From Actinomadura luteofluorescens (lineage in GTDB: Bacteria > Actinomycetota > Actinomycetes > Streptosporangiales > Streptosporangiaceae), in the NCBI RefSeq assembly GCF_013409365.1, contig NZ_JACCBA010000001.1, positions 1-64,000 on the forward strand: a DNA stretch of 64,000 nucleotides. Reading direction: 5' to 3'. Position numbers and translations under genes: made by a program. Shown here one piece after another: positions 6,732-23,700 of this stretch; positions within the stretch are counted from its first letter, which is position 1, and each line of letters opens with the position of its first letter. The notes beneath the pieces were generated by a model. That model was not told where the DNA came from and did no database searches. It saw only the letters and a list, made by a program, of their open reading frames with translations.

Positions 6732-8182
6732 GCGCCCCGCAGAAGGCCGCCGCGGCGCCCTACCGCAGCACCGTCCAGGACGAGGCCCGCGACGGGTTCG
6801 GGTGGCTGCTGGCCGCCGAGTGGACCAAGCTGCGCACCGTCCGCCGCTGGATGCTGGCCCTGCTGGCGTCGGTGCTGCTGACCGTCCTGGTCGCGCTGCT
6901 GGCGGCGGCCGGAAGCCAGTCCACCGGGTCGGGCCGCGGTCGGCCCGACCCGGCACTGCTGAAGATCACCGATATGGGCCACTACACCTACCGGCCGCTG
7001 GCGGGCGACGGCTCGGTCGTCGCCCGCGTCACCTCCCAGGAGGGCGGCGGCGGGTGGGCCAAGGCCGGCCTCATGGTCAGGGGGAGCACGCGGGCGGGGG
7101 CCCCGTACGCGGCGCTGGCGGTGACGCCGGCGCACGGCGTCCGCCTTCTGAGCGGCTACGAGGAGGGCGGCGCCGGCGGCGGGACGGGCGCGGTGCCGCA
7201 CTGGCTCAAGCTGGCCCGCGCCGGGACGACCGTCACCGGCTACGCCTCGGCCGACGGCCGCGACTGGCGCCGCGTCGGGTCCGTCCGGCTGAAGGGACTG
7301 CCGCGCACGGCTCTGGCGGGCGTGTTCGTGGCCGCCCCGGACGAGGTCGAGGTGCGGCGCATGTTCGGCGGGGAGAGCGTCTCAGGTCAGCCCTCCGCCA
7401 CGCGGGCGACGTTCGACGAGGTGGCGGTGGCGCCGGCGCAGCCGGGCGCCGCCTGGCGGGACCGGGGCGCCCTGAGCGGTCCGGCGGCCGACCCGTCCCT
7501 GGACGGCCGCAGCGGGTCCGGAGGGACGATCGCGCTGAAGGGCGTGGGGGACATCGGGCCGAACGCGTTCGCCGACGACGTCACCAGGACCACCCTGTCC
7601 GGCACGCTGATCGGGCAGGTGGCGATCGTGACGCTGGCGGTGCTGTTCGTGACGGCCGAGTACCGGCGCGGGATGCTGCGCACGACGTTCGCGGCCGCAC
7701 CCCGGCGCGGCCGGGTCCTGGCGGCCAAGGCGGTCGTGGCGGGCCTGGCGTCCCTGGTGGCGGGGCTGGCGGCGGCGTTCGGGTCGGTGCTGCTCGCCGG
7801 GCCGGTGGAGCGTGCGCACGGGCTGGCGGTGCCGCCCCTGAGCGACGGCGCGGTGCTGCGCGCCGCCGCCGGCACGGGGGTGCTGTTCGCCGCGATCGCC
7901 GTGCTCTCGCTGGCGGTCGCGGTGATCGTGCGGCGCGGCGCGCCCGCGATCACCATCGTGCTGCTGCTCCTGCTCGTCCCGCAGATCGTGGCGACCGGGC
8001 TGCCGCTGTCGGCGGCGCGGTGGCTGGAGCGCCTCACCCCCGCGGCCGGGTTCGCGATCCAGCGGACCGTCGACCGCTACGACCAGTCGATCGGTCCGTG
8101 GGCGGGCCTCGGGGTGCTGTGCCTGTACGCGGCGGTCGCCCTGGCGGCGGCCGCGCGGCTGGTCGCGAGGCGCGACGCGTGA
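6728..8182 (+). CDS. ABC-2 exporter permease with a DUF1349-like extracytoplasmic insert
   Basis: A 484-residue permease subunit. The cytosolic start contains EWTKLRTV, the hallmark of this permease family, then the first membrane helix at about 41-62. A large insert of about 220 residues follows before helix two (about 291-310). Its core (residues about 75-250) reads as a concanavalin-like beta sandwich of the DUF1349 type: VVARVTSQEGGGGWAKAGLMVRG, then WLKLARAGTTVTGYAS and DGRDWRRVGS. Five further helices follow. Ordinary members are about 260 residues. The insert should lie outside the membrane and may bind glycan or the exported ligand (inference). Confidence 0.85.
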   Translation: MSAPQKAAAAPYRSTVQDEARDGFGWLLAAEWTKLRTVRRWMLALLASVLLTVLVALLAAAGSQSTGSGRGRPDPALLKITDMGHYTYRPLAGDGSVVARVTSQEGGGGWAKAGLMVRGSTRAGAPYAALAVTPAHGVRLLSGYEEGGAGGGTGAVPHWLKLARAGTTVTGYASADGRDWRRVGSVRLKGLPRTALAGVFVAAPDEVEVRRMFGGESVSGQPSATRATFDEVAVAPAQPGAAWRDRGALSGPAADPSLDGRSGSGGTIALKGVGDIGPNAFADDVTRTTLSGTLIGQVAIVTLAVLFVTAEYRRGMLRTTFAAAPRRGRVLAAKAVVAGLASLVAGLAAAFGSVLLAGPVERAHGLAVPPLSDGAVLRAAAGTGVLFAAIAVLSLAVAVIVRRGAPAITIVLLLLLVPQIVATGLPLSAARWLERLTPAAGFAIQRTVDRYDQSIGPWAGLGVLCLYAAVALAAAARLVARRDA

Positions 8183-12628: not shown

Positions 12629-13024
12629 TCAGCCTCCCGGGGCCGAGACCACGACGGTCCCGGTCGCGGTGACCGCGACGATCGGCTCGGGCAGCGCCTC
12701 GGCCGCCGACTCGCCCTTGTCGGGGCGACCCCGGCACACCACGCGGGCCTGGAAGTCCATCACGCGGCTGCGCGTGCCGGCGCGGGCCAGCACGGCGGTG
12801 GTCTCCAGGACGTCGCCCGCCCGGACGGGCGCGCGGAACTGCACGTCGGAGTAGGAGGCGAACAGGCCCTCGTCGCCGTCGGTGCGGATGCACAGTTCCG
12901 TGGCCACGTCCCCGAACAGGCCCAGCACGTAGGCGCCGTCGACCAGGTCGCCGGCGTAGTGGGCGTGCGAGTAGGGGATGTAGCGGCGGTGGGTGACGGT
13001 CAGTCCCTCGCGGGGGTCGCTCAC
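12629..13024 (-). CDS. kal: 3-aminobutyryl-CoA ammonia-lyase (hotdog fold)
   Basis: A 131-residue hotdog protein matching Kal, which removes ammonia from 3-aminobutyryl-CoA to give crotonyl-CoA in lysine fermentation. HAHYAGDLVDGAYVLGLFGDVATEL is close to known Kal proteins, which are about 128 residues, and VQFRAPVRAGD is the usual hotdog helix-strand junction. Its GTG overlaps the kamE stop by four bases. Assignment rests on the family resemblance together with the two aminomutase genes directly upstream; as a lone gene it would be called a generic hotdog protein. Confidence 0.88.
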   Translation of the reverse strand: MSDPREGLTVTHRRYIPYSHAHYAGDLVDGAYVLGLFGDVATELCIRTDGDEGLFASYSDVQFRAPVRAGDVLETTAVLARAGTRSRVMDFQARVVCRGRPDKGESAAEALPEPIVAVTATGTVVVSAPGG

Positions 13025-13860
13025 TCTTCCTCCATCGTCGTGGGCCGGTGCTCGCCGGGCAGCAGGGCGTGCACGAGGTAGCTGGCGACCTCGGCGGGGG
13101 TGGTGCCCTTGCCGAAGATGCGGTCGACGCCGAGGTCGCCCTCGGTGACGGTGTCGAAGCGGGGGCCGCCGACGACCAGCAGGGGCCGTCCCATGCCGCC
13201 GGCCACCGCGGTCGGGTACTCGGCGTGGAACGCCGCGGCCATCTGCTTGGTGTTGTGCAGGTGGGCGTTGCGCTGGGTGACGACCTGGGACACCAGGACC
13301 GCGTCGGCGTTCTCGGCCTTGGCGCGCTCCACCAGCTCCTCGACCGTGACCTGGGCGCCCATGTTGACGACCTGGATCTCCCGGTAGTACTCCAGGCCCT
13401 TCTCCCCCGCGTACCCCTTGACGTTGAGGATCGCGTCGATCCCGACGGTGTGCGCGTCGGTGCCGATGCAGGCCCCGACGACCACCAGCCGCCGGTTCAG
13501 CGTCTCGCGGATCGCCAGGTTCACCTCCTGGGAGGTCAGCAGCGGGTAGGCGCGCTCTTCCGGGACGGGGATCGAGGCGTAGTCGATGAGGTGCCGCACC
13601 TTGCCGTACACGATGAAGAAGGTGAAGTGGGGGCCCATCGGCTTGGCGTGGACGACGCTGGCCGGGTCGAGGCCCATCTTCCCGGCCAGTTGCAGGGCGG
13701 CCGCCTCGGCGCGCTTCCCGGCGGGGACGGGCAGGGTGAACGACATCTGCACCATGCCGTCGCCGGTGGTGTCGCCGTAGGGTCGGATCACCTGCCGGGT
13801 GTCGGCGGGCTCGGCGGGGGCCTGGGTCCCGGTACCGGTTCCGGGGCTCTCGACCGTCAT
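13021..13860 (-). CDS. kamE: Lysine 5,6-aminomutase beta subunit
   Basis: A 279-residue cobalamin- and PLP-binding subunit that moves the terminal amino group of beta-lysine or D-lysine. The B12 motif DAHTVG supplies the axial ligand His137 (Asp135-x-His137-x-x-Gly140). Lys148, 11 residues later in LNVKG, matches the PLP-binding Lys144 that lies 11 residues after His133 in the clostridial enzyme. A Rossmann-type B12 domain fills the C-terminal half. ATGA overlap with kamD and GTGA with kal makes a tight three-gene operon. Confidence 0.93.
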   Translation of the reverse strand: MTVESPGTGTGTQAPAEPADTRQVIRPYGDTTGDGMVQMSFTLPVPAGKRAEAAALQLAGKMGLDPASVVHAKPMGPHFTFFIVYGKVRHLIDYASIPVPEERAYPLLTSQEVNLAIRETLNRRLVVVGACIGTDAHTVGIDAILNVKGYAGEKGLEYYREIQVVNMGAQVTVEELVERAKAENADAVLVSQVVTQRNAHLHNTKQMAAAFHAEYPTAVAGGMGRPLLVVGGPRFDTVTEGDLGVDRIFGKGTTPAEVASYLVHALLPGEHRPTTMEEE

Positions 13861-15476
13861 GCGGGCACCTCCTGGTCGGCGGTGGAACGGGCGGCGTGGG
13901 GGTCCTCGGTGTCGAGGATCTCGATGGCGGGGTTGAAGTACCCGTCGGCGCGCGCGACGACGCCGTCCAGGCCCTTGCCCCCGTCGGGCGGGCGGCGGGT
14001 GATGCCGAACGTGCCCTCGGCGATGGCCTCGAGCAGCCCGTCGTCGGCGATGCGCTCCAGCAGCTCCACCGACTCCGACAGCACCTGCTTGGCGCGCTGG
14101 ACGAGCATCCCGTCCGGGCGGGGCATGAAGTCCTCGGCGAGGTTCCCGCAGGCGTCGCGGACGTAGCGGACGTTCTCCAGCGCCAGGTCGCGGTCCGACA
14201 GCCAGGGGGTGTGGATGCCCTCGGTCATCATCCCGATCAGGATGATCGACTGCCCGGTCATCACGCCGGCGAGGTTGAAGAACGCGTCCAGCAGGTAGCC
14301 GGCGAAGATGTTGCCGGTCATGTGCTTGGTCGGCGGCATGTACTTCAGCGGCGCGCCGGGGAACAGCTCCCGGACGAGCTGGGCGTGCGCCAGCTCCATC
14401 CGGAACGACTCGGGGATCGCCGGGTTGATCTCGAAGGCGTGGCCGAGGCCGAGCTGGTCGTCGGCGAGGCCGGCCTCGTGCCCGAACCGCTCGTTCAGCA
14501 GCTGGCTGACGACCACGGTGTGCGCGGCGTCGACCGCGTCGGCGGTGGTGAGGTAGTTGTCCTCGCCGGTGTTGATGACGATGCCGGCGCGGGCGTGGAT
14601 CTGCCGGGAGAACCGCTGGTCGATGAACGTGCGGCGCGGGTTGATGTCGCGGAAGATGATGCCGTACATGCAGTCGTTCAGCATCATGTCCAGGCGCTCC
14701 AGCCCGGCGAGCGTCGCGATCTCCGGCATGCACAGCCCGGAGGCGTAGTTCGTCAGGCGCACGTACCGGCCGAGCTCGCGGGACACCTCGTCCAGGGCCG
14801 CGCGCATCAGCCGGAAGTTCTCCCGGGTGGCGTAGGTGCCGGCGTAGCCCTCCCGGGTGGCACCCTCGGGCACGAAGTCCAGCAGCGACTGCCCGGTGGA
14901 GCGGATCACCGCGACGACGTCGGCGCCCTCGCGCGCGGCGGCCTGCGCCTGCGGGATGTCCTCGTAGATGTCGCCGGTCGCCACGATCAGGTAGACCAGC
15001 GGCCTGGCCGGGTCGGCCCGGTCGGGGGTGGGCAGCTCGGCCAGCAGCCGGTCGCGCTCGGCACGGCGCCGGTCGATGCGCGCCATGCCGCCGCGGGCCG
15101 CCTCGCCCGCGGCCTTGCGGGCGTGCTCGGCGTCGGTGCCGGACGGGAGCCGGAACGACACCCTCCCCCGGGCGGCGGCCCGGGCCAGGTCGTCCAGGGA
15201 GCCGTGCGAGCCGGTCAGCAGCGCGTCCCAGACCGGCAGGGCGAGCCCGTGCTCCAGGCCCACCTGGCCGCGGACGGCGTCGGCGAGGTGGTTGGCCCAG
15301 GGGCGCCCCTCATCGTCGGCGCCGGTCAGGCCCGCCAGCCGCAGCAGTGCCCGCTCGACCGAGACGGTGGTGTGGGAGCGGGCCATGTCGATGATGGGTT
15401 CGGCGGCCCGGGCGGCCAGGCGCCGGGCGGTGCGCACCGCCTCCGGGTCGAGGTCCAGCTTTCCCTGCGGCGCCAT
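13857..15476 (-). CDS. kamD: Lysine 5,6-aminomutase alpha subunit
   Basis: A 539-residue catalytic TIM-barrel subunit of adenosylcobalamin/PLP-dependent lysine 5,6-aminomutase. Features of the family include VYLIVATGDIYEDIPQAQAAA, VIRSTGQSLLDFVPEG, the GLCMPEIA segment and INTGEDNYLTTADAV. The length agrees with the usual 515-540. It is first in the operon kamD-kamE-kal. No reactivase genes (kamB/kamC of Fusobacterium) lie nearby, so B12 reactivation must be encoded elsewhere. Confidence 0.94.
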   Translation of the reverse strand: MAPQGKLDLDPEAVRTARRLAARAAEPIIDMARSHTTVSVERALLRLAGLTGADDEGRPWANHLADAVRGQVGLEHGLALPVWDALLTGSHGSLDDLARAAARGRVSFRLPSGTDAEHARKAAGEAARGGMARIDRRRAERDRLLAELPTPDRADPARPLVYLIVATGDIYEDIPQAQAAAREGADVVAVIRSTGQSLLDFVPEGATREGYAGTYATRENFRLMRAALDEVSRELGRYVRLTNYASGLCMPEIATLAGLERLDMMLNDCMYGIIFRDINPRRTFIDQRFSRQIHARAGIVINTGEDNYLTTADAVDAAHTVVVSQLLNERFGHEAGLADDQLGLGHAFEINPAIPESFRMELAHAQLVRELFPGAPLKYMPPTKHMTGNIFAGYLLDAFFNLAGVMTGQSIILIGMMTEGIHTPWLSDRDLALENVRYVRDACGNLAEDFMPRPDGMLVQRAKQVLSESVELLERIADDGLLEAIAEGTFGITRRPPDGGKGLDGVVARADGYFNPAIEILDTEDPHAARSTADQEVPA

Positions 15477-15547
15477 TGCCGTCTCCCCTCACGCAGCCGC
15501 CCCTCTCAGGCCGGTCCGAACAATCATCCGTCATACCGAGTTCTCTA

Positions 15548-15604
15548 CGGGAGATCTTCCGGTACGAACACCGTATTCCACAAGAACTAGCACCAGATCT
15601 CCCG
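15548..15604. repeat. Inverted repeat upstream of kamD
   Basis: CGGGAGATCT (15548-15557) and AGATCTCCCG (15595-15604) are perfect 10-bp inverted arms 37 bases apart, 72 bp upstream of the kamD start within the 275-bp divergent region. It could be a two-site operator or an mRNA leader stem. The rest of the region shows only a TATGCT -10-like box (15709-15714) for the rightward gene. Confidence 0.45.
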
Positions 15605-15751
15605 CTACCTTCCGCAGGCGGGCAGCCCCATCTTCCCCCTGCGAGCGGTCATCTCACCCCCAGGTGACGGTCCGCGACAACCCATGTCGTGACGACTCTG
15701 GGTAAAGCTATGCTCACCCCTGGTCATGGACGGACCGATACCGGGAGGGGC

Positions 15752-16519
15752 ATGATCCTTTACTTCGCGGCCGCGGCCTGCGCCGTCGGCGTGGTCATCG
15801 TGGCGGGCCAGTTGGTACGGCGAGCGCGCGGAAGCGTGGACGACGCCGCCCCTGACGGCCCCACGTCCTCCCACACCGGGGCGATGCTCTCCGCGCTGTT
15901 CCTGCTGGCGTTCGCCATCGCCATCGTCGTGCCGTGGACGACGGCCGACTCCGCCCGCTCCAACACCTACACCGAGAGCCAGGCGATCGCCGAGGCGTAC
16001 TGGGCCGCCCAGCGCCTCCCCGCGGCCGACGCCCGGCGCGTCCAGGACGGGCTCATCGCCTACGTCGAACTCGTCCGCGGGCCCGAGTGGCGGCTGATGA
16101 AGAAGGGCCGCCTCACCGACCGCGGCTGGGCCGACCTCGACGGGCTGCGACGCGAGGCCATCGCCGTCCAGGCCGGAACCGACGAGGCCAAGGACGCGCG
16201 CAGCGCCGTCCTGGACCACCTCGGCGAGATCTCCGCGGCGCGGCGCCAGCGCGCCATGGACGCCCGCACGACGCCGCCCGCCGGACTGCTCGCCGTCACC
16301 CTCGTCACCGGCATCGTGGTCCTGCTGCTGCCGTTCCTCGCGGGCGCCCGCCCGCGCGGCATGGCGCTGGTGCCGCTGTCGCTGATGGCGGCCCTGCTCG
16401 CCGCCGGGGCCTACCTCACCGTCGACATCTCCCACGTGTTCACCGGCGCCCTCGCCGTCGGACCCGAGGCGTTCACCGGGCTGCACGCCGACCTGCAGCG
16501 CATCGCGGGGGGCGGCTGA
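15752..16519 (+). CDS. DUF4239 (bestrophin-like) membrane protein
   Basis: A 255-residue protein with two N-terminal helices (about 3-22 and 45-62), a central soluble domain rich in charged residues (about 75-180) and two C-terminal helices (about 185-205 and 210-230). SNTYTESQAIAEAYW and the ARRQRAMDAR segment match DUF4239, a family proposed to be distantly related to bestrophin channels. ATG 15752 has GGGAGGGG immediately upstream. The stop overlaps the start of the proline-rich gene (TGATG), so the two are co-translated. Function unknown. Confidence 0.82.
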   Translation: MILYFAAAACAVGVVIVAGQLVRRARGSVDDAAPDGPTSSHTGAMLSALFLLAFAIAIVVPWTTADSARSNTYTESQAIAEAYWAAQRLPAADARRVQDGLIAYVELVRGPEWRLMKKGRLTDRGWADLDGLRREAIAVQAGTDEAKDARSAVLDHLGEISAARRQRAMDARTTPPAGLLAVTLVTGIVVLLLPFLAGARPRGMALVPLSLMAALLAAGAYLTVDISHVFTGALAVGPEAFTGLHADLQRIAGGG

Positions 16520-17178
16520 TGCGCCCGCGCCCCGTCCCGCGCGCCGCCGCCACGGGCAGGGCGCGGCCGACCCGCACCCTGCCGGTGCGCGCTCTGCCGG
16601 TGCGGGCTCTGCCGGCTCTGACCCTGCCCGCCCTGACCCTGCCCGCCGTCATGCTCGGATTCCCCGCCGCCGCGCAGGCCGGCCCGGTGCCGACGCCCAG
16701 GATCAGCGTGTGCATCGACATCGAGATCGGCGGCGGCCCCGCCGACGACTGCGAACCGCCGGCCACCTCCCCGACCCCGCCCCCGCCGCCGCAGGAGCCG
16801 CCCCCCGACACCCCCGAACCCCCGCCGCCTCCCCAGACTCCGCCGGAGCCGCCGCCCGAACCGCCGCCTCCGCCACCCCCACCTCCCCCGGAGCCCGAGC
16901 CGCCCGCCCCGGCGCCGCCCCCGCCGGCGGCCGCGCCGCGGCCCCGGCCCGCGGCCCTCGCGCCGGGCCCGCCCCCGCGGACGCGGCCCGAACCGGCGGC
17001 GCCCGCGCCGCCAAGGAAGCCCACGAAGGCCAAGAAGCCCCCACCGGTGCGGGCGCACACGGCGCCCCGCCCGAAGAAGGAGCCGCCGCGGCGCCGCGAC
17101 CCGCTGCGCTCCTCGCTCGTGCTGGTCGTCATCGCCGTCGTCATCAGCGCCGGCACCGCCATCGCCTTCGCGCACTGA
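16519..17178 (+). CDS. Secreted or anchored proline-rich protein
   Basis: A 219-residue protein of unrecognised function. A basic N-terminus and a hydrophobic stretch ending AAAQA look like a signal peptide; this stretch is built from tandem repeats (LPVRA twice, LPALT twice, bases about 16579-16650). A short domain with two cysteines (CIDIEIGGGPADDC) is followed by about 85 residues that are mostly Pro with Glu, then a Pro/Lys/Arg-rich part and a C-terminal helix (SLVLVVIAVVISAGTAIAFAH). The likely layout is a stiff wall-spanning linker anchored at its C-terminus. It is coupled to the DUF4239 gene. Confidence 0.75.
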   Translation: MRPRPVPRAAATGRARPTRTLPVRALPVRALPALTLPALTLPAVMLGFPAAAQAGPVPTPRISVCIDIEIGGGPADDCEPPATSPTPPPPPQEPPPDTPEPPPPPQTPPEPPPEPPPPPPPPPPEPEPPAPAPPPPAAAPRPRPAALAPGPPPRTRPEPAAPAPPRKPTKAKKPPPVRAHTAPRPKKEPPRRRDPLRSSLVLVVIAVVISAGTAIAFAH

Positions 17179-17206
17179 GCCCGGCGCGCGACCGGACCGG
17201 CGCCCA

Positions 17207-17241
17207 CCGCCCACGCCCGCCGCGGAGGCGGGCGTGGGCGG
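17207..17241. terminator. Bidirectional terminator
   Basis: CCGCCCACGCCCGCC (17207-17221) and GGCGGGCGTGGGCGG (17227-17241) form a perfect 15-bp stem with a five-base loop between the two convergent genes. Confidence 0.8.
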
Positions 17242-17246
17242 CGCGG

Positions 17247-18047
17247 TCAGGCGCGGCGGCCGACTCCGCCGAAGACGAGGAAGCGCTCCGGGTCGGTCAC
17301 GGCCTCGCCCTCGTCCGGGCGCCACAGCGGCACGTACACCAGGCCGGGGTCGAGCAGGTCCCAGCCGTCGAAGAACCGCAGGATCTCGGCGTGGGACCGG
17401 GACACCGCCGGAGACGTGGCCCGGTCGTAGAGCTTGCCGATCGCCGCGGTCTTGGTCGGCCGCGCCTCGTGCGTGAGATGCGAGACCACCAGGAAGCTGC
17501 CCGGCGCGGCCGCCTCCCGCAGCGCCGCCACGATGCCCGCCGGGTCCTCCGCGGGCTTGATCAGGTGCAGTGCCGCCACGAGCAGGAACGCCACCGGCTC
17601 GGAGAGGTCGACCAGCCCCTTCAATTCCGGCGCCGCGAGGACGCCCGCCGGATCGCGCATGTCGGCCTGGACCACCGCGACGCGGTCGTCGCCCGCCAGC
17701 AGGGCGCGGCTGTGCGCCACCGCGACGTCGTCGTTGTCGACGTACACCACGCGCGCGTGAGGATCGACTTCCCGTACGACCTCGTGCACGTTGCCCTGCG
17801 TCGGAATGCCCGAGCCGATGTCGACGAACTGGGCGACGCCGTCCTCGGCGAGCGCGCGCACGGCCCGGCGCAGGAACGCCCGGTTCGCGCGCGCCAGTTC
17901 CCGCGCCCGCGGCTCCACCCGCAGCAGCCCCGTCGCCAGATCACGATCCGACGCGAAATTGTGGGCTCCCCCGAGCAGATAGTCGTACACCCGTGCGACG
18001 CTGGGTCTGCGGCTGTCGACCTCGGGTGGGATCCACTCGGAGTCCAT
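17247..18047 (-). CDS. DUF574-type SAM-dependent methyltransferase
   Basis: A 266-residue member of the SAM-dependent methyltransferase family PF04672 (DUF574), which is expanded in Streptomyces and Actinomadura relatives. Typical marks are ARVYDYLLGGAHNFASDRDLA at about residues 18-38, the motif I variant VDIGSGIPTQGN, the acidic YVDND and FLLVAALHLI. No signal or membrane segments. Substrates of this family are not established. It is divergent from the phosphatase gene. Confidence 0.9.
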   Translation of the reverse strand: MDSEWIPPEVDSRRPSVARVYDYLLGGAHNFASDRDLATGLLRVEPRARELARANRAFLRRAVRALAEDGVAQFVDIGSGIPTQGNVHEVVREVDPHARVVYVDNDDVAVAHSRALLAGDDRVAVVQADMRDPAGVLAAPELKGLVDLSEPVAFLLVAALHLIKPAEDPAGIVAALREAAAPGSFLVVSHLTHEARPTKTAAIGKLYDRATSPAVSRSHAEILRFFDGWDLLDPGLVYVPLWRPDEGEAVTDPERFLVFGGVGRRA

Positions 18048-18145
18048 GCAACGCCTCCCTTTGACCCGAAGGGGGTGCCGTCCGCGGGCACCTCAGCGTA
18101 ACGCCGGCCGCGGCGGAAGGCCCCCGCACACGGACTGTGAGGACC

Positions 18146-19741
18146 ATGGCCGAAGACCCCGCACGGCCGGCCCGGGCGACCGTCCTGCTCACCCCTGACG
18201 GGGTGGTCACCGGCTGGAGCGACGGCGCCGCGCGCCTGTTCGGCCCCGGCGCGGCCGCCGCGGCCGGAGCCGCGCTCACCGACCTGCTCGGCCGGCCCGG
18301 CGCGGCCGAGCAGCTGCTGGTCGCGTTGAGGGAGGCAGGGGCGGGCCGCCCCTGGAGCGGTGTGCTGCCACTGTCGGACGAGGGCCTGGCGGTGACCTGC
18401 GACCCGATGACGGGCGCGGACGGCCGCGTCCAGGTGCTGCTGGCGGTGTCCGCGCCGTGCACCGGCGGCCTGGAACTGCTGGACGAGGCCGCCCGCCGCG
18501 TCGGCTCCACCCTCGACCCGCACCGGACCGCCCGCGAGATCGTCGCCGTCACCGTCCCGCGGTTCGCCGACGCCGGCGCCATCTACGTGCTGGAACGGCT
18601 GCTCGCCGACGACGACCAGCCCGGCGCCGAGACCGGCGGATCCGCGGTCGTGCGGCGCCTGGCCGTCGCGCTCGCCGACGACGACCCGAAGGAGTGGTCC
18701 CGCGAGTTCCCCGTCGACGAGGTCATCGTCTACCCGCCGGACACCCCCTTGGCCCGGTGCCTCGCCACCGGCGGCACGGTCGAGTTCGGCGGCGACGCCG
18801 CCCGCGACACCGTGGTCGGCCGCACGGGCCGCGTCCTGGACGGCATCGCCGACCACGTGTCACTGCTGGCGGTGCCGCTCGTCGCGCGGGGCCGCACGCT
18901 CGGGTTCGCGGTGTTCAGCCGCAAGCGCGGCCGGCCGCCCTTCGGCCCGGACGACCGCGCCCTGGCCTCCGAGCTCGCGAGGCGCGCCGCGACCTGCGTC
19001 GACAACGCCTGCGCGTACCGGCGCGAGCACCGCACCGCGACGGCCCTGAGGGCGGCGCTGCTGCCCGCCGCCGTCACCGCCCCGTCCGGCCTGCGGATCG
19101 CGCACCGCTACCTGCCCGCCGGCAGCGGCGTCGGCGGCGACTGGTACGAGGTGGTGCCGCTGCCCGGCGACCGGATCGCGGTGGTGATCGGCGACTCGCT
19201 CGGGCACGGCGTCACCGCCGCCGCCGCGATGGGCCAGCTGCGGGTCGCCGCGCACACGCTGGTCAGGTGCGGATTCCCGCCCGGCGAGGTGCTCGCCCGG
19301 CTCGACGCCATCGCCCGGGAGCTGGACGCCGCGCAGTTCGCGACCTGCCTGTGCCTGGTCTGCGACCCGGCGACGCTGCGGTGCGAGATGGCCGGCGCCG
19401 GGCATCCCCCGCCGCTGCTGGCCCTGCCCGGCGGCACCGTGCGGCACTTCGCCGTCCCCCAGGGGCTGCCGCTCGGGGTGTCCGACCACGAGCACCCGGC
19501 CGAGTACCCGCAGGCGTCGGCGACGATCCCGCCGGGCGCGACCCTCGCCTTCTACACCGACGGCCTGGTGGAGAGCCGGATGCGCACCCTCGACGACGGC
19601 ATCGCCCGGCTCGCCTCGGCCCTGGTCGCCTCCCAGGACGGGACGCTGGAGGAGACCGCCGACGGCGTCGTGGCCCTGCTGTCCGACCAGCGGGGCCACG
19701 ACGACATCGCGCTGCTCCTGATCCGCCCCGACGGACCCTGA
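18146..19741 (+). CDS. PAS-GAF-PP2C (SpoIIE-type) serine phosphatase
   Basis: A 531-residue cytosolic signalling phosphatase. The order is a PAS-like domain (about 8-105), a GAF domain (about 112-300) and a SpoIIE-type PP2C domain (about 310-530). Metal-binding motifs are GSGVGGDWYE (about residue 325), VVIGDSLGHG (about 346) and GHDDIALLL near the end. Proteins of this type dephosphorylate anti-anti-sigma factors, but no sigma, anti-sigma or antagonist gene is adjacent. Start choice between GTG 18137 and ATG 18146 is uncertain; neither has a strong ribosome site. Confidence 0.9.
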   Translation: MAEDPARPARATVLLTPDGVVTGWSDGAARLFGPGAAAAAGAALTDLLGRPGAAEQLLVALREAGAGRPWSGVLPLSDEGLAVTCDPMTGADGRVQVLLAVSAPCTGGLELLDEAARRVGSTLDPHRTAREIVAVTVPRFADAGAIYVLERLLADDDQPGAETGGSAVVRRLAVALADDDPKEWSREFPVDEVIVYPPDTPLARCLATGGTVEFGGDAARDTVVGRTGRVLDGIADHVSLLAVPLVARGRTLGFAVFSRKRGRPPFGPDDRALASELARRAATCVDNACAYRREHRTATALRAALLPAAVTAPSGLRIAHRYLPAGSGVGGDWYEVVPLPGDRIAVVIGDSLGHGVTAAAAMGQLRVAAHTLVRCGFPPGEVLARLDAIARELDAAQFATCLCLVCDPATLRCEMAGAGHPPPLLALPGGTVRHFAVPQGLPLGVSDHEHPAEYPQASATIPPGATLAFYTDGLVESRMRTLDDGIARLASALVASQDGTLEETADGVVALLSDQRGHDDIALLLIRPDGP

Positions 19742-19747
19742 CCCGCC

Positions 19748-21079
19748 CTAAAGGCCGGGGATCTCGTGGTTGCGGAACGCGTCCACGAAGTAGGTGTGGT
19801 CCTCCCGGACGATCTCGGCGTACTCGGTGCCGAACGCGACCATGGCCTCCACGAACGCCGACTCGTCCGGGCCGATCACCGCGTCGATGGCGTCCTCGAC
19901 CTGGAACCCGACCAGGGTGTGGTCGGAGTCGGTGTCGGACACGCAGTGCACCTTGGCGGTGGCGCGGCCCAGGTCGTCCAGCACCGACAGCATGTCCTCG
20001 GGCTCGGTGAGGCCGCCCCAGTCCAGGTCCTCCTCGTAGGGCGACAGCTCCTGCACGACGTAGCCGACGCCGTCGATCCGGGTGTGGCCGAGCCACGGGT
20101 CGCTGTTGGCCTGCAGCGCGCGCCGCGACACGGCGGTGCGGTGCCCGTGGTGCTGGAAGTACTCGCGGATGCGGGGGTCGTCGACCACCCGGCTGGCCGC
20201 CGCGACGTTGCCCTGCTTCATCGACAGGACGACGTCGTTCTCCAGCGCCTGGGTGTTGCCCTCCACGAGGATGTTGTAGGCCGACAGCCCGGCCGAGCCG
20301 ATGCCGAACCCGGACGCGCCGACGATGTCCTTGATCTCGTAGGTGAGGCTGCCGAAGCGCTTCTCGTTCGGGATGGTCGTCAGGTACTCCGCGTAGGCGG
20401 CCTCGACCTGGGCGCGCTCGGCGTCGTCCAGGCGGCGGACGCCGGGGCGGTCGCGGAACCGGCGCTCGGCCCCCGACACCACGGTCATGCCCTCCAGCAG
20501 CCCGGTCCGGGTGCCGCCCATCGCGGCGACCAGCACGTCGCGGACGTAGCCGTCGGTGGTGTCGAGCGTCAGCGCGAACTTCTCGTCGCCCTCGTGCGCG
20601 GCGAACTTGCGGACCTGGTCGACGTAGGCGCGCACGTAGGTCTCGATGAGCCGGCGGATGTCGGCGTCGGAGATCGCCTTCTGCCACGCCAGCAGCGCCA
20701 GGCTGGCCACCAGGCGCTTGACGTCCCAGGTGAAGTGGCCGACGTAGGCCTCGTCGTAGTCGTTGACGTCGAAGACGAAGACGCCGTCGTCGTTCATGTA
20801 GGTGCCGAAGTTCTGCGCGTGCAGGTCGCCCTGGATCCACACGCGGGACGTGCGCTCGTCGGCCCACGGGTCGTCGTCGTCCGCGATGTCGGCGTAGAAC
20901 AGGCAGGCGCTGCCCCGGTAGAACGCGAACGGGTCGGACGCCATCTTGCGGAAGCGGCGGCGGAACTCGGCGGGGCTGCGCTCCATCAGGTCCGAGAACG
21001 CGTCGACCAGGACGTCGACGATCTGCGCCTGGCGCTCCTTCGGGTCCCGCCCGCGCAGTTCCTCGGTGATGCTCGCCAT
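19748..21079 (-). CDS. DUF2252 family protein
   Basis: A 443-residue member of DUF2252, a family with distant kinase-like features. Conserved blocks include FAFYRGSACLFY, VWIQGDLHAQNFGTY, VFDVNDYDEAYVGHF (kinase-like Asp-rich region), KDIVGASGFGIGS and YVVQELSPYEEDL. No membrane segments. ATG 21079 has GGAGAGAG upstream. It is 52 bp downstream of kdd on the same strand and could be read through from it, but no metabolic link to lysine degradation is known. Confidence 0.88.
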   Translation of the reverse strand: MASITEELRGRDPKERQAQIVDVLVDAFSDLMERSPAEFRRRFRKMASDPFAFYRGSACLFYADIADDDDPWADERTSRVWIQGDLHAQNFGTYMNDDGVFVFDVNDYDEAYVGHFTWDVKRLVASLALLAWQKAISDADIRRLIETYVRAYVDQVRKFAAHEGDEKFALTLDTTDGYVRDVLVAAMGGTRTGLLEGMTVVSGAERRFRDRPGVRRLDDAERAQVEAAYAEYLTTIPNEKRFGSLTYEIKDIVGASGFGIGSAGLSAYNILVEGNTQALENDVVLSMKQGNVAAASRVVDDPRIREYFQHHGHRTAVSRRALQANSDPWLGHTRIDGVGYVVQELSPYEEDLDWGGLTEPEDMLSVLDDLGRATAKVHCVSDTDSDHTLVGFQVEDAIDAVIGPDESAFVEAMVAFGTEYAEIVREDHTYFVDAFRNHEIPGL

Positions 21080-21131
21080 GCTCTCTCCCTCGATGATCGG
21101 ACGGTCCCCGCCACGGCCGGGATGTTCCCGG

Positions 21132-22184
21132 TCATTGTGCCGAATCCGGACCGGTCCGGGAGGTGAACAGCGCACGCACGGCGGGTTCCGACCGCACCAG
21201 TTCCAGGGCGGTCTCCGCGTGCCCGGGGACGTAGCCGTTCCCGATGAGCATCGTGACGTCGGCGGCCAGGCCCTCCGCGCCGAGCGCGGCGGCCGGGAAC
21301 GAGGTCGCCATCGAGAAGAACACGACGGTGCCGCCGGGCGCGGTGGCGAGGATCGCGCCGTGCTCGCAGCCCGGCACGTCCACGCACACGACGGTGACGT
21401 CGGCCGGCTCGCCGACGGCCGCCGCGACCGCCACCGGGTCGCGGGCGTCGGCGCGGACGACGGCGTCGGCCAGGCCCGAGGCCGCCAGCCGCTCCTCCTC
21501 CGCGGCGGTGGGGACCAGCCCGATCACCCGGGACGCGCCGGCGCGCCGGGCGGCGGCCAGCGACAGGCTGCCGCTCTTGCCTGCCGCGCCCAGCACCAGC
21601 ACCACGGGACCGCCCTCGCGCGCCGACACGACGCGGTGGGTGAGGGCAGGCGCGCCGCACACGTCCATGACGGCGAGCGCCAGCGGCACCGGCATGTCGT
21701 CAGGCAGGACCGCGGCGATGGAGCGGGCGAACAGGATCGCGTGGCCCCGCGCCGGCACCTGCTCGGACCGCCCGTCCCAGTCCGCGAGGCCGTCGGTGAC
21801 CGCGAGCGGGGTGAGGGTGAGGGACACCAGGGTGGCGACGCGGTCCCCGGGCTTCAGGCCGAGCGGCGAGTCGGGCCCGGCCTCCTCGACCACGCCGACG
21901 AGCATGCCGCCCGACCCGGTCACCGGGTTGTGCATCTTGCCGCGCTCCTCGATGATCCGCAGCACCTCGGCGCGGATCGCGTCCGGGTCGCCGCCGTGCG
22001 CGGTGTGCAGCTGGCGGTAGGAGGCGGCGTCCAGGTTGAGGCGCTCGACCGCGATCCGCACCTCGTCCGGCCGGATCCGCGGATCGGGGTCCAGCCGCAG
22101 CGCGGCCTGCGGCAGGACGCCCGCGGGCTCCAGCACCCGGTGCAGCCCGACCGCCGTCCCCGTCCCGCCTCCGGTCGTCGCCAT
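21132..22184 (-). CDS. kdd: L-erythro-3,5-diaminohexanoate dehydrogenase
   Basis: A 350-residue NAD(P)-dependent enzyme that oxidatively deaminates 3,5-diaminohexanoate to 5-amino-3-oxohexanoate, the step after lysine 5,6-aminomutase. MDR-like core with LGAAGKSGSLSLAAARRAGA as the nucleotide-binding loop, LRLDPDPRIRPDEVRIAVERLNLDAAS near the N-terminus and KMHNPVTGSGGMLVG, all characteristic of Kdd rather than general alcohol dehydrogenases. ATG 22184 has AGGA five bases upstream. It is divergent from kamA with 136 bp between them. Confidence 0.93.
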   Translation of the reverse strand: MATTGGGTGTAVGLHRVLEPAGVLPQAALRLDPDPRIRPDEVRIAVERLNLDAASYRQLHTAHGGDPDAIRAEVLRIIEERGKMHNPVTGSGGMLVGVVEEAGPDSPLGLKPGDRVATLVSLTLTPLAVTDGLADWDGRSEQVPARGHAILFARSIAAVLPDDMPVPLALAVMDVCGAPALTHRVVSAREGGPVVLVLGAAGKSGSLSLAAARRAGASRVIGLVPTAAEEERLAASGLADAVVRADARDPVAVAAAVGEPADVTVVCVDVPGCEHGAILATAPGGTVVFFSMATSFPAAALGAEGLAADVTMLIGNGYVPGHAETALELVRSEPAVRALFTSRTGPDSAQ

Positions 22185-22320
22185 GCCGTCCTTCTCCTAA
22201 CATCGGGTGGTGTTACGCAAGATATCCAGGGCACCACTGGTTTCATCGAAAGTCTTCCCGTAACGTCGGCGGTACACAAGACTTTTATGCGATCAATGTG
22301 AGGCTAGGAGGCGGTCGACG

Positions 22321-23700
22321 ATGACCACTGCTCTGCACCCGGACGCCCTGCAGTCCGAGGAGGCCGCGCGCCAGCCGTACGCCTACCGGCGCCGGCCCCT
22401 GGTGGAGCCCGACTGGCGGCGTCTTCCAGGATGGCGGGACGTCACGGAGGCCGAGTGGGATTCGGCGCAGTGGCAGCGCGCCCACTGCGTGAAGAACGTC
22501 CGCCAGCTGCGCCGCGTCATGGGCGACCTGCTCGACGAGCGCTTCTACGCCGATTTGGAACGTGACCAGGCCGAGCGCGCCACCATGTCGATGCTGCTGC
22601 CCCCGCAGATGCTGAACACGATGGACGCCTCCTCCACCGAGGCCTTCTACGCCGACCCCGTGCGCCGCTACATGCTCCCGGTGTTCAGCGACCGGCGCAC
22701 CGACTGGCCGTCCCACCCGCACGCCTCCCGCGACTCGCTGCACGAGGCCGAGATGTGGGCCGTCGAGGGCCTCACCCACCGCTACCCCACCAAGGTCCTG
22801 GCCGAGCTCCTGCCGACCTGCCCGCAGTACTGCGGGCACTGCACCCGCATGGACCTGGTCGGCAACTCCACGCCGAACGTCGACAAGCACAAGTTCACCA
22901 TCAAGCCGCCGGACCGGCTCGGCGCCATGCTGGACTACCTGCGCCGCTCCCCCGGCGTCCGCGACGTGGTCGTCTCCGGCGGCGACGTCGCCAACATGCC
23001 GTGGGCGCGGCTGGAGTCGTTCGTCGACTCGCTGCTGGACATCGACAACATCCGCGACGTCCGGCTGGCCAGCAAGGCGCTCATGGGGCTGCCGCAGCAC
23101 TGGCTGCAGGACGACGTCCGCGCCGGGATGGAGCGCCTGGCGACCAAGGCGAACGCGCGCGGCGTGCAGATCGCGATCCACACCCACGTCAACGCCGCCC
23201 AGTCGGTGACGCCGCTGGTCGCCAAGGCGGCCCGCGCGATGCTCGACACCGGCATCCGCGACGTGCGCAACCAGGGCGTGCTGCTGCGCGGCGTGAACGA
23301 CACGCCCGAGGCGCTGCTCGACCTGTCGTTCGCGCTCCTCGACGAGGCCGGGATCCTGCCGTACTACCTGTACATGTGCGACATGATCCCGAGCAGCGAG
23401 CACTGGCGGCTCGCGGTCTGGGAGGCGCAGGAGCTGCAGCACGCGATCATGGGCTACCTGCCCGGCTTCGCCACCCCGCGGATCGTCTGCGACGTCCCCT
23501 ACGTCGGCAAGCGGTGGGTGCACCAGCTCGCCGACTACGACCGCGAGCGCGGCATCTCCTACTGGACGAAGAACTACCGCACCGGCCTGGAGCTGTCCGA
23601 CCCCGACGCGCTGACCCGGCGCTACGAATACCACGACCCGATCTACACCCTGCCGGACAAGGGCCAGGAGTGGTGGCGGGAGCGGTCGGGGACGGCCTGA
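22321..23700 (+). CDS. kamA: Lysine 2,3-aminomutase
   Basis: A 459-residue radical SAM enzyme that converts L-lysine to L-beta-lysine using a [4Fe-4S] cluster, SAM and PLP. The cluster motif is Cys167-x3-Cys171-x2-Cys174 in TCPQYCGHC. VVSGGDV and the C-terminal VGKRW (Lys397, the candidate PLP lysine) follow. The usual glycine-rich loop before that lysine is replaced by VPYV, and the C-terminus continues into YWTKNYRTGLE, as in a separate KamA clade. It opens the lysine route whose later enzymes lie at 12629-15476 and 21132-22184. GAGG and AGGAGG sites precede the ATG. Confidence 0.93.
   Translation: MTTALHPDALQSEEAARQPYAYRRRPLVEPDWRRLPGWRDVTEAEWDSAQWQRAHCVKNVRQLRRVMGDLLDERFYADLERDQAERATMSMLLPPQMLNTMDASSTEAFYADPVRRYMLPVFSDRRTDWPSHPHASRDSLHEAEMWAVEGLTHRYPTKVLAELLPTCPQYCGHCTRMDLVGNSTPNVDKHKFTIKPPDRLGAMLDYLRRSPGVRDVVVSGGDVANMPWARLESFVDSLLDIDNIRDVRLASKALMGLPQHWLQDDVRAGMERLATKANARGVQIAIHTHVNAAQSVTPLVAKAARAMLDTGIRDVRNQGVLLRGVNDTPEALLDLSFALLDEAGILPYYLYMCDMIPSSEHWRLAVWEAQELQHAIMGYLPGFATPRIVCDVPYVGKRWVHQLADYDRERGISYWTKNYRTGLELSDPDALTRRYEYHDPIYTLPDKGQEWWRERSGTA

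Follow-up and report, generated by a model that had tools for sequence, protein, structure and literature searches.

Introduction

The lysine aminomutase pathway is known from anaerobes, as a study of Cloacimonas recounts (PMC3149608). By its account the route there shares KamA, KamDE, Kdd and Kce with the gene set described here and has Kat in place of Kal (PMC3149608); Actinomadura carries a gene for Kal. Among solved structures, the Kce 2y7d comes closest to our candidate. We analysed the first 64,000 bases (hereafter the window) of the 9.62 Mb single-contig genome (C1) of Actinomadura luteofluorescens, together with the remainder of that genome and samples of its order and phylum. All six families of the clostridial and fusobacterial lysine fermentation (kamA, kamD, kamE, kdd, kce and kal) are present, with Kal, KamE, KamD and Kdd passing the NCBIfam equivalog cut-offs and Kce and KamA recognized by best match only. 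Unlike the clostridial and fusobacterial systems, this set occurs in an actinomycete that, like its genus, is presumed to be aerobic, with a divergent KamA, with kce 3.47 Mb away and with no MutL-type reactivase found. The pathways to beta-lysine antibiotics also use lysine 2,3-aminomutase and share the KamA chemistry and cofactors; here, in contrast, kamA and kdd form a divergent pair, and the genome also encodes the rest of a catabolic route.

None of the titles and abstract openings listed in our literature searches gives an account of the aminomutase pathway in actinomycetes. The enzymes are already known, and NCBI models name four of the proteins; new are the divergent KamA, the different gene arrangement and, presumably, the different host physiology. 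We propose that the two gene blocks in the window, together with the distant kce, very probably form a complete lysine 2,3-/5,6-aminomutase route leading from L-lysine to crotonyl-CoA and acetoacetate. The family-model and structural matches available at each step, the co-occurrence of KamD and Kce and the adjacency of their genes in related genera all argue for this reading, as do the joint loss of both from one genome, the Glu20 of Kce, the CoA-transferases and acetoacetyl-CoA synthetase of the host genome and a 3-oxoacid CoA-transferase pair within a related locus. By gene content, a B12- and radical-dependent pathway of anaerobes is a regular part of this soil actinomycete genus and extends to many other families of actinomycetes. 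An active pathway would give them a lysine-degrading route to crotonyl-CoA, some of which might feed the building blocks of antibiotics, and would open KamA, KamDE and Kce to genetic testing in an aerobe.

Two gene blocks in the window

Three of the genes form one operon on the minus strand, joined by 4-base overlaps between kal and kamE and between kamE and kamD: kal (12629–13024), for a 3-aminobutyryl-CoA ammonia lyase of 131 amino acids (NF052388, 191.7 bits against a cut-off of 160); kamE (13021–13860), for a lysine 5,6-aminomutase subunit of 279 residues (NF052385, 339.8 against 280) that was aligned to 8t0v; and kamD (13857–15476), for the other subunit (NF052384, 699.9 against 600; solved relatives 8t0v and 1xrs). 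About 6 kb away lies a divergent pair, consisting of kdd (21132–22184, minus strand), for an L-erythro-3,5-diaminohexanoate dehydrogenase of 350 amino acids (NF052381, 262 against 200; 7dl3, 205 bits), and kamA (22321–23700, plus strand), for a radical-SAM/PLP lysine 2,3-aminomutase of 459 amino acids from a divergent actinobacterial clade (2a5h, 144 bits). Open reading frames, translations and family models bear out the positions of all five genes in the preliminary description, as well as its division into a tight operon and a divergent pair. Five unrelated genes separate the blocks, as it had also stated, and four of them were scanned against family models: these encode a bestrophin-like protein, a SAM methyltransferase, a SpoIIE phosphatase and a DUF2252 protein, and the fifth is a proline-rich open reading frame (about 16516–17178) taken from a reading of the frame list. 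A single copy of kamD was found in the genome, and its nearest named relative is that of Actinomadura mexicana at 98%, among the best 80 of 566 loci, from which records of the genome itself may have been left out. An Rfam scan of positions 8000–30000 gave no match at E ≤ 0.5.

The gene content is observed directly, and each activity is predicted from family membership. KamA would convert L-lysine to L-beta-lysine, which KamDE, with adenosylcobalamin and PLP, would turn into L-erythro-3,5-diaminohexanoate; Kdd would oxidize this to 3-keto-5-aminohexanoate, Kce would combine that product with acetyl-CoA to give 3-aminobutyryl-CoA and acetoacetate, and Kal would release ammonia from 3-aminobutyryl-CoA to leave crotonyl-CoA. 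Acetoacetate would then be activated by a 3-oxoacid CoA-transferase or acetoacetyl-CoA synthetase, and the products would presumably be oxidized or used as precursors, not fermented to butyrate.

Cofactor and substrate residues of the aminomutases

The cofactor residues singled out in the preliminary description, Cys167, Cys171 and Cys174 of KamA and His137 and Lys148 of KamE, are present in both translation and alignment. In KamE (279-residue frame) the two residues fall opposite a His and a Lys in the solved lysine 5,6-aminomutase 8t0v, and we take His137 to be the cobalamin His and Lys148 the PLP Lys; with both subunits above their cut-offs, KamD and KamE are assigned to the AdoCbl/PLP lysine 5,6-aminomutases. 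KamA scores far below the cut-off of the AblA equivalog TIGR03820 (169.4 against 525.4 bits) and also below that of the KamA family TIGR00238 (159.5 against 199.2); both results count against a complete route, and its position under both marks it as a divergent KamA. Its sole solved match is 2a5h, a lysine 2,3-aminomutase, and C167, C171, C174, R176, D354, D391 and K397 are conserved without exception in an alignment of 12 actinobacterial KamA proteins. D354 and D391 align with D293 and D330 of 2a5h, presumably the lysine-binding Asp pair, and we assume that the CxxxCxxC cysteines are the cluster ligands and that K397 has the role of the PLP Lys. K397 and the PLP lysine of a canonical KamA, likely equivalents, are offset by one position when the two proteins are aligned together. 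The motif and the Asp pair align with 2a5h and, like K397, occur in all 12 actinobacterial proteins; the protein is filed not as an AblA equivalog, only as one predicted to work like it.

A second KamA-family radical SAM protein is encoded in the same genome (C1:3264629-3265324); it has no aligned lysine-binding Asp pair, and it has relatives in the type-B genomes described below.

A Kce candidate elsewhere in the genome

The preliminary description had the pathway lacking Kce. This is true of the window, and does not hold for the genome. A genome-wide family search found three BKACE (PF05853) proteins, of which the one at C1:3479510-3480334, beside dtd and 3.47 Mb from the window blocks, has Kce as its best family, with 289.6 bits against an NF052387 cut-off of 382 that it does not reach, and the solved Kce 2y7d as its best PDB match, at 41% identity; a second BKACE of the genome (BKACE2) is not far behind, at 37% to 2y7d. 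All 10 aligned Kce rows have Glu20 (chain numbering of 2y7d), where the other two BKACEs of the genome have Asp or Arg; His52, His54, Glu236 and Asp237 are common to all three and so do not discriminate between them. The neighbourhood is stable within the genus, dtd adjoining kce in 30 of 30 loci fetched (35 genus genomes have kce), and in nine single-contig genomes kce lies at least 2.18 Mb from kamD by circular distance.

The score below the cut-off leaves room for a different assignment, in which C1:3479510-3480334 acts on another beta-keto acid and the cleavage step is performed by another BKACE or by none, and the family acts on many substrates, as one study reports (PMC4922564). Against this, the candidate shares the distribution of KamD, in a comparison that covered it alone among the three BKACEs, its counterparts lie near kamD in related genera, and Kce is its best family, so that we regard this alternative as extremely improbable. 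The same three lines of evidence lead us to reject the absence of Kce, and the KamD-matched distribution points to an actinobacterial Kce missed by the cut-off of the curated model.

Co-occurrence of KamD, Kce and KamA

In a sample of 249 genomes from 56 genera of the order, KamD (NF052384, E ≤ 0.001) was found in 65, in 62 above the cut-off and in three as split or partial pieces; Kce (E ≤ 1e-60) was found in the same 65, and the other 184 have neither. These 65 genomes fall in 14 of the 56 genera and are therefore not independent, so that a Fisher value computed for the association treats them as more independent than they are. Within Actinomadura, KamD is present in 35 of 39 sampled genomes, and the remaining four are without both KamD and Kce. 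The phylum sample comprises 396 genomes, with a KamD match in 21 and a score above the cut-off in 15. All five of these 15 that belong to the same class have Kce (the candidate itself, or proteins at 64–69% identity), as do three of the ten in other classes, at 46–47% identity; the seven of 15 above-cut-off genomes in which no Kce was matched at E ≤ 1e-70, which count against the complete route, all lie outside the class, where a distant Kce may fail the threshold. Phylum genomes without a KamD match gave no Kce match at E ≤ 1e-70 either. A further observation that weighs against the complete route is that 11 of the 65 KamD genomes are without the KamA type of the window.

The opposite pattern, KamA without KamD, occurs in nine of the 249 genomes (eight copies at 68–74% identity and one broken) and likewise weighs against it. 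The pattern also bears on the preliminary suggestion that the pathway may stop at 3,5-diaminohexanoate; this compound or a derivative would then be incorporated into a secondary metabolite. Actinomycetes use KamA to make beta-lysine for antibiotics, and in two (L202, L204) of the four KamA-only loci viewed (L202, L203, L204 and L206) the neighbours resemble, by eye, the ligases and oxidases of a biosynthetic cluster. An early stop would nevertheless leave unexplained the retention of Kdd, Kal and a Kce, the enzymes of the later steps, and the identical distribution of KamD and Kce over the 249 genomes; nor does the presence of KamD in 35 of 39 genus genomes and in many families resemble a strain-specific product cluster, and none of the four scanned genes between the blocks comes from a biosynthetic family. 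With a Kce candidate, CoA-transferases and an acetoacetyl-CoA synthetase in the genome, we consider an early stop highly improbable. Of the preliminary reading, then, the aminomutase genes in an actinomycete, their two blocks and a gene content for a route to crotonyl-CoA are supported, and the lack of Kce and a probable early stop are not.

Gene order and inheritance

We compared gene order in the best 80 of 566 confirmed named KamD loci. Wherever the sequence allowed a test, kamE directly follows kamD (77 loci) and kal is no more than 1.8 kb away from it (74 loci), and lnt lies downstream in 47 of 62 testable loci; the named loci come from many families. In 41 of them the sequence extends 8 kb or more upstream: 36 have kdd there, and the opposite strand carries kamA in 28, kce in five, both in none and neither in eight. 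In related genera the two blocks of the window are contiguous, as kamA|kdd-kamD-kamE-kal, and kdd adjoins kamD in Actinoallomurus and several metagenome-assembled genomes; in Actinomadura and its neighbours the two are separated by DUF2252, alone or accompanied by the SpoIIE, methyltransferase and bestrophin-like genes.

One genome (G156) shows a joint loss of kamD and kce: neither KamD nor Kce is found genome-wide, kamA is in two pieces, and across a 19.9 kb region no kamE, kal or kdd was seen and the flanking genes were kept. Membership of the intervening genes in the pathway was rejected, since the bestrophin-like, methyltransferase, SpoIIE and DUF2252 genes persist in this genome without KamD or Kce; the direct adjacency of kdd and kamD elsewhere also speaks against it. 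The P450, DUF3616 and acyl-CoA dehydrogenase genes after kamA are likewise retained there and so are probably not pathway-specific.

We built a KamD tree from 31 rows, having left out three others with stops in their spans; it broadly follows families, with 17 of 28 inner branches well supported. Gene order and tree together favour old vertical inheritance with losses, a history that they suggest with outgroup branches that are long and some inner forks that are weak.

An Amidohydro_3 gene lies upstream of kamD in 14 of the 80 named loci (over half of the query covered; for example, L152:8420-9985 and L199:11531-13096), including loci of Frankiaceae, Intrasporangiaceae, Kineosporia and Lentzea, and wherever kdd is seen it sits between kdd and kamD; its product perhaps hydrolyses a lactam or an N-acyl group. 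In another genome (G096), kamD (L207:13298-14889) reads as two overlapping frames, because the gene is either genuinely split or wrongly sequenced.

Clusters with kce and without the KamA of the window

Eleven genomes of three genera (g15, g23 and g41), including Herbidospora solisilvae, Acrocarpospora macrocephala and Streptosporangiaceae NEAU-GS5, have a different arrangement, which we call type B. In all 11, kce lies 1.9–2.8 kb from kamD. It points away from kdd-kamD-kamE-kal, as a divergent gene, in the three genomes viewed with flanks and in six named loci, of which three represent the same or closely similar records. No KamA of the window type was found in any of the 11 at E ≤ 1e-60. A family search recovered a single weak KamA-family protein in each; five of the 11 were read and have FVERD instead of MCD at the first lysine-binding Asp, and the one that was aligned, like its orthologue in the A. 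luteofluorescens genome, is without both Asp residues. The beta-lysine of type-B genomes would come from either another enzyme or uptake.

These genomes speak for a salvage function, in which beta-lysine or N-acyl-beta-lysine is the main substrate in place of free lysine and KamA serves something else, in that all 11 keep KamD and Kce without the window-type KamA. In the lineage of the window, by contrast, kamA is divergent to kdd, 28 of the 41 named loci with sufficient upstream sequence have kamA there, and R176, D354 and D391 are conserved in each of the 12 aligned KamA proteins, which makes salvage very unlikely there in comparison with the complete route from L-lysine. A broader scenario, which we raise tentatively and judge rather unlikely in its entirety, is that aerobic actinomycetes inherited a complete, oxygen-adapted route with a KamA clade of their own from a remote shared ancestor, and that the branch of Herbidospora, Acrocarpospora and their kin has since lost KamA and depends on preformed beta-lysine, such as that in the beta-lysine antibiotics of other bacteria.

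The named loci with kce beside kdd and no window-type KamA are L048, L050, L051, L125, L127, L129, L135, L139 and L146. The kce/kdd gap of Herbidospora and Acrocarpospora contains a CTGAGTC..GACTCAG palindrome.

Downstream capacity and reactivation

Five CoA-transferase matches were found in the genome, two of them an adjacent pair (C1:9268125-9269479), together with an acetoacetyl-CoA synthetase (806 against 521 bits) with one TAG inside the matched stretch; in G096 the genes of a 3-oxoacid CoA-transferase pair separate kdd from kamD. A reactivase, noted earlier as absent from the window, is absent genome-wide as far as the MutL type is concerned, for which the genome gave not a single match, and this counts against the complete route; among the 249 order genomes this search gave 63 weak matches and none above the cut-off. 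Beside kal in two distant actinomycetes, G452 and a Hamadaea metagenome-assembled genome, lies a gene for a GlmL/MutL-type ATPase (L199:7410-8852 and L158:12703-13959), likely an aminomutase reactivase.

Putative regulatory sites

When 16 intergenic regions of the Actinomadura type and its neighbours were aligned and the window was scanned, a footprint conserved in Actinomadura emerged, CGAAAGTCTTCCCGTAACGTC, in the divergent kdd/kamA intergenic region (22185–22320, core 22248–22262, no strand assigned). A similar sequence upstream of kamD, GGAAGATCTCCCGTA (15546–15564, minus strand), is a candidate operator. Allowing up to three mismatches, the window contains five matches, two of which are the overlapping site upstream of kamD; shuffled windows gave a mean of 0.87, and one of 100 reached five. 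In its palindrome form, a pattern defined from the same sites on which it was scored, the footprint matches 16 of 30 kamD upstream regions and two of 17 kdd/kamA regions with up to five mismatches, against five of 357 background windows. At the same tolerance it was found in none of 37 regions upstream of kce, which counts against the complete route, and we regard the footprint as a candidate operator and a lead only. An inverted repeat in the kdd/kamA region, GTTACG...CGTAAC, was dropped, as four of 59 regions match it. In several lineages an Lrp/AsnC-type regulator, a candidate regulator of the pathway, is encoded near kamA (L138, L152, L153, L164, L197, L198 and L201).
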